From positions 385,238-449,237 of the forward strand of contig NZ_LT593747.1 of NCBI RefSeq assembly GCF_900089075.1: a stretch of DNA of 64,000 bases, written 5' to 3'. Positions within the stretch are counted from its first letter, which is position 1. The number at the start of each line of letters is the position of its first letter. The position numbers and the translations under genes are program-made. Below are positions 26,508 to 33,526 of this stretch, piece after piece. The notes below the pieces were generated by a model. It made no database searches, was not told the origin of the DNA, and was given only the letters and a program-made list of their open reading frames with translations. This DNA comes from Vaginella massiliensis. Its GTDB lineage: Bacteria > Bacteroidota > Bacteroidia > Flavobacteriales > Weeksellaceae.

Positions 26508-26642
26508 CAAGCTTAATTAATTGATTAATTAGCTGAAAATAAAATTATTAATAAATTCAACCAAAGCAGAACTTTTTTTTAAAAACATTTAAGCTTTCTT
26601 CCTAAAATAGGCATCTATAAGGTCTTTGCCAGAAAACAAATT

Positions 26643-26757
26643 GATTCGAAAATAAAAAAATGTATATTTGCCTGTTCGAAAATGGAATTGGGTGTAAATC
26701 CTAAACTGTCGCGCAACTGTGAAGAACCAAGTTCTAAGTCAGGTCTTTTTTCGAATC
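26643..26757 (+). promoter_or_regulatory. Cobalamin-riboswitch-like element
   Basis: The core GGGTGTAAATCC, then CTGTCGCGCAACTGTGAA, then a small GAAC-CAA-GTTC hairpin and AAGTCAGG follow the conserved order of the cobalamin aptamer (GGTGnAAnTCC, CnGnCCCGCnACTGT, AGTCAG). The whole is enclosed by GATTCGAAAA at 26643-26652 and TTTTCGAATC at 26748-26757, a perfect 10-bp outer stem; a nested TTCGAAAA at 26675-26682 could pair instead. The 5' part (P2-P3) is much shorter than usual, so it is a compact or truncated version. It lies 87 bases before the thioesterase gene. Confidence 0.7.
26663..26670 (+). promoter_or_regulatory. Possible -7 element inside the riboswitch region
   Basis: TATATTTG fits TAnnTTTG. 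If used, transcription would start near 26676, at the inner TTCGAAAA strand, giving a minimal aptamer closed by that strand and 26748-26755. Confidence 0.4.
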
Positions 26758-26844
26758 ATTTAGACAATGCTTTCGCGGTTAAAGTAATTACTATTATTCT
26801 ACGAAAGTATAGTTTATTCCGTTTAAAAATTAAAAAAATAAACT

Positions 26845-27258
26845 ATGCAAGATCAAGTACTTGAAGACAAAATGATTCTTCACAAAGAGAGAATCGAGAA
26901 TTCTAAAACAGTGATTTTCAGAGCTGTTTTCCCTGGTGATACCAATCACCACAACACCATGTTTGGGGGTAATGTGTTGAGTCTTATGGACGAAGTTTCA
27001 TTTCTTACGGCGACTCGTTTTGCCAAAAAACCTATCGTTACGGTAAGTAGCAACAAAATCAATTTTACGCATCCGATCCCAAGTGGCACCATCATCAAAC
27101 TACAAGGAGAGGTAGTGAAAATAGGCAATACCAGCGTCGATGTGAAGGTTGATTTGTGGGTAGAAAGTATGTATCAAGAAGGAGTGCAACATGCTATAAG
27201 CGGAACTTTTACTCTGGTTGCCATCAACGAGAATAAAAAACCTGTTCCAATTATTTAA
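26845..27258 (+). CDS. Acyl-CoA thioesterase, hotdog fold
   Basis: A 137-residue hotdog-fold thioesterase of the BACH/YciA type, which hydrolyses acyl-CoA to acid and CoA. Diagnostic segments are PGDTNHHNTMFGGNVLSLMDEVSFLTA (the NHxxxxFGG..L..MDE pattern, in which the Asp is catalytic), VTVSSNKINFTHPIPSGTII and the final VAINENKKPVPI. The start at 26845 has an A-rich Bacteroidetes leader; an internal Met at 26872 is an alternative. It is the first gene downstream of the cobalamin-riboswitch-like element, an unusual target. The carbonic-anhydrase-like gene follows 42 bases later. Confidence 0.92.
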   Translation: MQDQVLEDKMILHKERIENSKTVIFRAVFPGDTNHHNTMFGGNVLSLMDEVSFLTATRFAKKPIVTVSSNKINFTHPIPSGTIIKLQGEVVKIGNTSVDVKVDLWVESMYQEGVQHAISGTFTLVAINENKKPVPII

Positions 27259-27288: not shown

Positions 27289-27296
27289 TAAATTTG
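27289..27296 (+). promoter_or_regulatory. Possible -7 element of the LCIB-type gene
   Basis: TAAATTTG fits TAnnTTTG; TTG at 27263-27265 gives a 23-base spacer. It ends only 4 bases before the ATG, so the transcript would be leaderless. Confidence 0.4.
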
Positions 27297-27300
27297 TCTC

Positions 27301-28044
27301 ATGTTAAAACGAGATAAATTAAAAATTGTTCGTAAATGGTATTCCAACGCCAAGACGACCATTGACAACATCAACAAAGTAATCGATTTTTTTGAAGATG
27401 AATTGCTGGTGGAGACCAATACGGTAATGTTTGCCGATAGCATTTGTAGCGACGATGTCAACAGTATTCAATTCCCGATTCGTGCCAAAGAATTCTTAGG
27501 ACCCTTTAAATTGGGCGGACTTAGTGGTTTTCCTTTTGCAGGACTCAGTGGGATGAAGGCTTTCTCGAGCCACGTGCCCGAAAATGGGGCAGCATTCATA
27601 TATTATGGTCCTCATATTGGGATTACCAAAGAAGGTGTTTTGGGCGAAATCAATCGGCACGGACAATTCTACAACACCAGCTGTTGTGGTGCTTCTATAG
27701 GTGCTTTGCAAAATTTGAAGGCTCATAAAATCGAGAAGGATTATTATGATGATTTAGATTATCAAATCAATACGATCGAGCAGATTATTTTACCAGAAGA
27801 GGAAAGAATTTTTCGAGCAGAAAATTCAATTTTCGAGGCAACCGAGGTGATTTACGAAGCCATTGACAAACGAATAAATGAACTGGTCGCAAACACGCAA
27901 TTCAATTGTCGGTACATTGTGCTCAACGGAGGTGTAATGGTGAATAGCGATGCCGATATGGGATCTTTTACCTCCAACAAGCGATTCGATATCATCAATG
28001 TAGAAACTGGCGAAAGATCGAGTTCTTTGGATTTTCTTAATTAA
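27301..28044 (+). CDS. LCIB-type (theta) carbonic anhydrase-like protein
   Basis: A 247-residue protein that I place in the LCIB/LCIC family, known from algae and diatoms and also found in bacteria, with a beta-carbonic-anhydrase-like zinc site. The family core GLSGFPFAGLSGMKAF (about 73-88) is followed by IYYGPHIGI and SCCGASIGA. The expected zinc ligands are Cys49 (ADSICSDD), His105 (GPHIG) and Cys128 or Cys129 (SCCGA); Asp51/Asp52 and Arg61 fit the catalytic pair. No transit or signal peptide. It would hydrate CO2 reversibly in the cytoplasm, though some family members lack activity. It may be co-transcribed with the thioesterase. Confidence 0.75.
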   Translation: MLKRDKLKIVRKWYSNAKTTIDNINKVIDFFEDELLVETNTVMFADSICSDDVNSIQFPIRAKEFLGPFKLGGLSGFPFAGLSGMKAFSSHVPENGAAFIYYGPHIGITKEGVLGEINRHGQFYNTSCCGASIGALQNLKAHKIEKDYYDDLDYQINTIEQIILPEEERIFRAENSIFEATEVIYEAIDKRINELVANTQFNCRYIVLNGGVMVNSDADMGSFTSNKRFDIINVETGERSSSLDFLN

Positions 28045-32922: not shown

Positions 32923-33006
32923 GGAGAGGTGCCAGAGTGGTAATGGAGCAGATTGCTAATCTGTCATCGGGAAACCGATGCCAGGGTTCGAGTCCCTGTC
33001 TCTCCG
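32923..33006 (+). tRNA. tRNA-Ser (GCT), copy 1
   Basis: Acceptor GGAGAGG pairs with TCTCTCC, discriminator G; anticodon loop TTGCTAA gives GCT; a long variable arm (CATCGGGAAACCGATG) is typical of serine tRNA. CCA is not encoded. Confidence 0.95.
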
Positions 33007-33048
33007 CAGTAGTTCTTTATTTTTTTGTAACGTTTTTTCTATAAAATA

Positions 33049-33123
33049 CGGGGTGTAGCGTAGCCCGGTCATCGCGCCTGGTTTGGGACCAGGAGGTCGC
33101 AGGTTCGAATCCTGCCACCCCGA
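33049..33123 (+). tRNA. tRNA-Pro (TGG), copy 1
   Basis: Acceptor CGGGGTG pairs with CACCCCG, discriminator A; anticodon loop TTTGGGA gives TGG. The T arm is GCAGGTTCGAATCCTGC. Confidence 0.95.
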
Positions 33124-33147
33124 CTTTTTTATTAGAAAATTTGGATT

Positions 33148-33221
33148 GGTCGCGTAGCTCAGTTGGATAGAGCATCTGCCTTCTAAGCAGACGGTCAGGG
33201 GTTCGAATCCCTTCGCGATCA
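33148..33221 (+). tRNA. tRNA-Arg (TCT), copy 1
   Basis: Acceptor GGTCGCG pairs with CGCGATC, discriminator A; anticodon loop CTTCTAA gives TCT. The T arm is GGGGTTCGAATCCC. Confidence 0.95.
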
Positions 33222-33250
33222 CAAGATAGATAACGTTATAGTGTAGCATA

Positions 33251-33334
33251 GGAGAGGTGCCAGAGTGGTAATGGAGCAGATTGCTAATCTGTCATCGGGA
33301 AACCGATGCCAGGGTTCGAGTCCCTGTCTCTCCG
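33251..33334 (+). tRNA. tRNA-Ser (GCT), copy 2
   Basis: Identical in sequence to copy 1 at 32923-33006. It follows the first tRNA-Arg and begins the second cluster unit. Confidence 0.95.
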
Positions 33335-33353
33335 CTTTTTTTTTAAAGAATTA

Positions 33354-33428
33354 CGGGGTGTAGCGTAGCCCGGTCATCGCGCCTGGTTTGGGACCAGGAG
33401 GTCGCAGGTTCGAATCCTGCCACCCCGA
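33354..33428 (+). tRNA. tRNA-Pro (TGG), copy 2
   Basis: Identical to copy 1 at 33049-33123. The spacer from the preceding tRNA-Ser is 23 bases shorter than in the first unit. Confidence 0.95.
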
Positions 33429-33452
33429 CTTTTTTATTAGAAAATTTGGATT

Positions 33453-33526
33453 GGTCGCGTAGCTCAGTTGGATAGAGCATCTGCCTTCTAAGCAGACGGT
33501 CAGGGGTTCGAATCCCTTCGCGATCA
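33453..33526 (+). tRNA. tRNA-Arg (TCT), copy 2
   Basis: Identical to copy 1 at 33148-33221, with an identical 24-base spacer from the tRNA-Pro in both units. Confidence 0.95.

Follow-up and report, generated by a model that had tools for sequence, protein, structure and literature searches.

A predicted B12-responsive adenosylcobalamin riboswitch controlling a hotdog acyl-CoA thioesterase in Vaginella massiliensis and other Bacteroidota

In this study, a riboswitch leader and the genes behind it were analysed in a stretch of 64,000 nucleotides of Vaginella massiliensis DNA (the window). An adenosylcobalamin (AdoCbl) riboswitch, including its P13 hairpin, lies on the plus strand at 26656–26796, where RF01482 of Rfam is matched over the full model length (E 2.8e-12) with 76.2 bits, the gathering cut-off being 50. 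RF00174 is also above its cut-off at this leader (35.2 against 31.5 bits). The regulated gene, at 26845–27258 (+), encodes a hotdog acyl-CoA thioesterase of 137 aa (TE), and its 4HBT domain scores 57.1 bits with PF03061 (cut-off 20.6). A gene for an LCIB-type beta-carbonic anhydrase follows at 27301–28044 (+; PF18599, 223.4 bits). The original prediction had described a cobalamin-riboswitch-like leader before an acyl-CoA thioesterase and an LCIB-type gene, and had proposed a search with both covariance models; this search bore out the leader, and both reading frames are as described.

The leader contains a single aptamer. Folding of 26671–26760 gave an aptamer core at 26674–26756 (+) closed by P1, in which GUUCGAAAA (26674–26682) pairs with UUUUCGAAU (26748–26756) beside the core. 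A promoter was predicted from the sequence at 26641–26670 (+), composed of TTG at 26641–26643, a 19-nt spacer and TATATTTG at 26663–26670, which matches the Bacteroidota −7 element TAnnTTTG. Of 62 distinct TE leaders, 37 carried an exact TAnnTTTG at a distance of 25–75 nt 5′ of the aptamer core, with 2.4 expected from dinucleotide shuffles. Since this promoter stands at the 5′ edge of the leader, the transcript should begin at around 26674, right where the P1 strand starts. A start inside the aptamer, which according to the original prediction would prevent folding, is not what the promoter indicates. The perfect outer stem of that prediction was right as to complementarity, GATTCGAAAA (26643–26652) being a perfect 10-bp complement of 26748–26757, but was rejected as a stem: it would span the promoter, an element found at the aptamer's 5′ edge in 37 of the 62 leaders. 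Because the stem would enclose a Bacteroidota promoter, its 5′ strand GATTCGAAAA is probably not transcribed.

A kissing loop between L5 and L13 has been described for the cobalamin riboswitch class (PMC9600662). In the window, the L5 loop UCGCG (26709–26713, +) is the predicted partner of the L13 loop CGCGG (26774–26778), which is carried by the P13 hairpin at 26769–26785 (+). These elements were located by leader comparison, folds and L5–L13 complementarity. The L13 segment was complementary to L5 at 4–5 of 5 positions in 58 of the 61 distinct TE leaders compared, and L13 followed the changes of L5 in L100 (UCGUG/CACGA) and L013 (UUGCG/CGCA). By Rfam score, kissing loop and single aptamer, the window leader belongs with the RF01482/RF00174 family, and it is assigned by sequence to the class-I-type AdoCbl riboswitches, a known aptamer class. 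It differs from this class in its target gene.

A start-codon sequestor, corresponding to the ligand-bound state, was predicted at 26807–26848 (+). It consists of a 12-bp helix between 26807–26818 and 26837–26848 that contains the AUG (26845–26847), and a 12-bp helix over the AUG had a P of 0.0018 in 20,000 dinucleotide shuffles. When P13 was formed in a constrained fold, the AUG was paired at 0.996–0.999 and the energy was −13.6 kcal/mol. An antisequestor, corresponding to the ligand-free state, was predicted at 26761–26816 (+), with 26767–26775 paired to 26802–26810 and 26761–26765 to 26812–26816. It takes up the 5′ strand of the sequestor and is the minimum-energy fold of 26760–26880 when the P13 strand is free (−17.4 kcal/mol). 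The gap of 3.8 kcal/mol between the two modelled states could plausibly be tipped by the ligand and the kissing loop. Significance in the two-state shuffle test was no more than moderate (P 0.011 and 0.024).

The same arrangement was followed in related leaders. Among the compact leaders (n = 23, the window included), mean AUG pairing was 0.94 when the P13 strand was withheld and 0.71 when it was free. The start-codon helix covaried in these leaders, as AUGAAC/GUUCAU in six and AUGAAU/AUUCAU in eleven with one G-U intermediate, the counts being leaders and not independent events. A start-codon sequestor general to all TE leaders was tried and rejected, with an individual P below 0.05 in only 4 of 54 leaders. 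The AUG sequestor was not clear in many long leaders, including those of Chryseobacterium-type genomes and of G001 and G002. Since the window and most compact leaders show this sequestor clearly and many long leaders do not, the predicted expression platform is taken to have diverged between lineages.

In the proposed switch, the ligand would dock L5 on L13, P13 would form, and the 12-bp hairpin would bury the AUG (off). In the absence of ligand, the P13 strand would make the antisequestor and free the AUG (on). TE translation would thus be off when B12 is plentiful, and TE would be made when B12 is short. We infer this direction, which agrees with how metE and btuB are known to be regulated. 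Textbook cobalamin riboswitch platforms act on the ribosome-binding site or on a terminator, whereas the platform predicted in the window occludes the AUG itself. A switch working at transcription, by termination or antitermination, would suit the long leaders that have no clear AUG sequestor; it is unlikely given that the 12-bp hairpin of the window covers the AUG, overlaps the antisequestor and has no U run 3′ of it in the window, and that the start-codon pairing covaries in compact relatives. The sequence evidence argues strongly that the AdoCbl riboswitch shuts off TE translation when B12 is plentiful, and this regulatory part is considered very probable.

The LCIB-type gene begins 42 nt after TE on the same strand, a position that would also fit the carbonic anhydrase as the intended target of the switch, for example by providing bicarbonate for propionyl-CoA carboxylase, with TE incidental. 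In the relatives checked, TE never had an LCIB homologue as a neighbour. A promoter-like TAAATTTG lies at 27289–27296, 4 nt 5′ of the LCIB start codon, and suggests a near-leaderless transcript of its own. Against these two findings the LCIB gene is a most improbable target, and it stands outside the conserved unit. Elsewhere in the window, at 32923–33526, a cassette of three tRNA genes is duplicated in tandem, the two copies of each gene having identical scores (32923/33251, 33049/33354 and 33148/33453).

The link between riboswitch and TE was investigated across Bacteroidota. Species genomes searched by TE alone gave 80 named loci, 22 of them Pseudomonas-like. A same-strand upstream cobalamin riboswitch was found at 37 or more (at least 37) of the 58 other loci. 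At 14 named loci the riboswitch lay within about 1.1 kb of TE (by motif search; several also by Rfam), including Empedobacter, Algoriella, Myroides, Flavobacterium suaedae, Taishania, Taibaiella, Pontibacter and Pseudochryseolinea. It stood directly before TE in Empedobacter and Algoriella, both Weeksellaceae, and in Myroides, Taishania and Pontibacter. The order riboswitch–metE–TE occurred at 19 named loci, for example in Pedobacter, Chitinophaga, Echinicola, Dyadobacter, Mucilaginibacter and Sediminibacterium. At the other 4 riboswitch-linked named loci, TE was behind nrdB-nrdA (L120) or with DUF5074 or other genes (L092, L106 and L123). No riboswitch was found near TE in the 14 Pseudomonas loci scanned. 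Within the family, cobalamin riboswitches directly precede TE orthologues in many genera.

Further operon layouts were found in the collected loci, a non-random sample in which some loci were fetched on account of a riboswitch match. With riboswitches verified and partners verified by Pfam, these were nrdB–TE–nrdA (L071, L220 and L221), nrdB–nrdA–TE (L215) and metE–TE (L214). At L100, TE shared an operon with cobT and cobS after a riboswitch-like leader whose aptamer was under the Rfam gathering score. The operon partners of TE in relatives are B12-independent isozymes (metE and class I nrdAB) or B12-salvage genes (cobT/cobS), and also DUF5074; the window TE itself has no isozyme or B12-salvage partner. 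A Por-secretion-tail protein recurred directly 3′ of TE in B12-linked loci (L100 5389–6360, L216 660–1649 and L218 2102–3118), and it may be a secreted factor for B12 acquisition.

The B12-independent enzymes that classically act as replacements are MetE and class I ribonucleotide reductase. Because TE shares riboswitch operons with metE and class I nrdAB, its gene order places it in the low-B12 response, that is, the B12-repressed regulon, of Bacteroidota. TE shares the operons and riboswitches of these genes, which have been grouped as isozymes of B12-dependent enzymes (PMC3766115). Unlike them, TE is not an isozyme of any B12 enzyme, and it would relieve a stalled pathway rather than replace it.

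The original prediction had left room for a riboswitch whose own gene had been lost, with TE 3′ of it by chance. Only one other cobalamin riboswitch was found in the V. massiliensis genome, so reduction is conceivable. The conservation of the TE–riboswitch link across the phylum contradicts this account and makes it very unlikely: riboswitch-linked TE occurs in many genera, families and orders and in several different operon layouts, and the kissing loop and start-codon pairing are kept with compensatory changes. A riboswitch that is apparently decaying by internal deletion was seen just 5′ of TE at L190 (G125), where the promoter and the 3′ start-codon partner UAUUCAUUUC are kept and most of the aptamer is gone. 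Same-genus genomes (G069 and G141) had no riboswitch motif.

The TE protein shares the fold family of the YciA, ACOT7 and ACOT12 hotdog thioesterases (4HBT, PF03061). Its detectable PDB relatives were 2gvh, 2eis, ACOT7, ACOT12 and HI0827. TE scored well under the cut-off of the YciA equivalog NF007970 (58.4 against 162 bits), and differs from these enzymes as a distinct subfamily of 125–140 aa with the signature TNHxxTxFGG...MDE. The relatives act on various acyl-CoAs, and the substrate of TE is not predicted by its sequence. Close homologues with 53–57% identity occur in Pseudomonas without a riboswitch. In the two same-genus genomes G001 and G002, TE was longer at its N terminus by about 50 aa (L061 5171–5701 and L062 4981–5511), and the leader there has an upstream AUG inside a short hairpin, so that a leader peptide is possible.

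To place TE in its metabolic context, the B12 enzymes of the V. massiliensis genome were considered. The proteins with a B12-binding domain were MutB (PF01642), an IcmF-type fused mutase of 1157 aa, and one B12-binding radical-SAM-like protein, the last two being named from sequence features and not by family search. MetH was not detected in this genome. RF01482 alone gave one cobalamin switch, and RF00174 revealed a second, which lies 5′ of genes for a BtuB-like TonB receptor and a lipoprotein with DUF5074 (L209 3806–6675, G000:C8), probably a BtuB–BtuG uptake pair. Because the B12 enzymes found are mainly acyl-CoA mutases and MetH was not found, B12 shortage should hit the acyl-CoA mutases first.

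The occurrence of TE was compared with that of methylmalonyl-CoA mutase. Among family genomes, about 222 of the 274 that have the PF01642 mutase carry a TE orthologue, as do 6 of the 22 that lack it, by a hand tally not corrected for phylogeny. The stricter proposal that TE occurs only alongside methylmalonyl-CoA mutase was rejected on these 6 mutase-free genomes. No riboswitch preceded TE in any of the 8 mutase-free TE-bearing genomes examined (G047, G049, G067, G080, G085, G091, G349 and G365). All 6 class-level genomes outside the family with a B12-linked TE have the mutase (G312, G321, G322, G348, G379 and G384), and the upstream riboswitch was verified in 5 of them. As with the operon layouts above, these loci are a non-random sample, some having been chosen for their riboswitch match. 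Some genomes have a riboswitch-free TE despite the mutase, for example G003, G016, G026, G050, G069, G111, G121, G125 and G141.

The following role is proposed for TE. When B12 is short, methylmalonyl-CoA mutase and the IcmF-type mutase would stall. Propionyl-, methylmalonyl- and isobutyryl-CoA would then accumulate and tie up coenzyme A. TE would hydrolyse these stranded acyl-CoAs, yielding free CoA together with an acid that can be excreted, and would serve as the low-B12 arm for the acyl-CoA mutases, as MetE does for MetH and NrdAB for NrdJ. That TE frees CoA from accumulated mutase substrates is judged rather probable from genomic context. The original prediction had suggested a new target tied to acyl-CoA balance under B12 shortage; the phylum-wide link, the metE and nrdAB operons, and the acyl-CoA mutases of a genome with no detected MetH support it, with the biochemical role inferred.

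TE might belong to the low-B12 regulon for another reason, such as a connection with methionine synthesis or a part in the general turnover of acyl-CoA or lipids. In favour of this, metE is the commonest neighbour of TE (the 19 named loci), hotdog thioesterases are promiscuous, and the TE family also exists without B12 control in Pseudomonas. This reading is possible but the less likely one: direct riboswitch–TE units exist without metE, including that of V. massiliensis, where MetH was undetected and acyl-CoA mutases make up most of the B12-dependent enzymes found, and riboswitch-linked TE occurred in 0 of 8 mutase-free genomes. A B12-off riboswitch on TE, with TE relieving stalled acyl-CoA mutases, is the best overall explanation of the sequence data and is considered likely.

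The targets listed in a survey of cobalamin regulons were isozymes of B12-dependent enzymes, synthesis, and the transport of B12 and cobalt, and the word thioesterase is absent from its main text (PMC3766115). In a transcript map published for Flavobacterium psychrophilum (PMC9723704), one cobalamin riboswitch is mentioned, and it lies ahead of a TonB-dependent transporter. No report of a thioesterase under a cobalamin riboswitch was found in the open-access papers searched. TE is therefore apparently an undescribed conserved target of cobalamin riboswitches, with prior annotation elsewhere, for example in RegPrecise or in subscription papers, being possible.

A conserved TE target suggests a further category of cobalamin riboswitch targets, the removal of stranded substrate. 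On balance, the genomic evidence slightly favours a third low-B12 arm in Bacteroidota, in which a riboswitch-controlled TE would empty acyl-CoA pools and free CoA without replacing the mutase. This gives a direct hypothesis for how bacteria short of B12 cope without a B12-independent methylmalonyl-CoA mutase, and a testable function for a widespread, vaguely annotated thioesterase subfamily. It may also bear on the release of propionate and branched-chain acids by B12-auxotrophic Bacteroidota.
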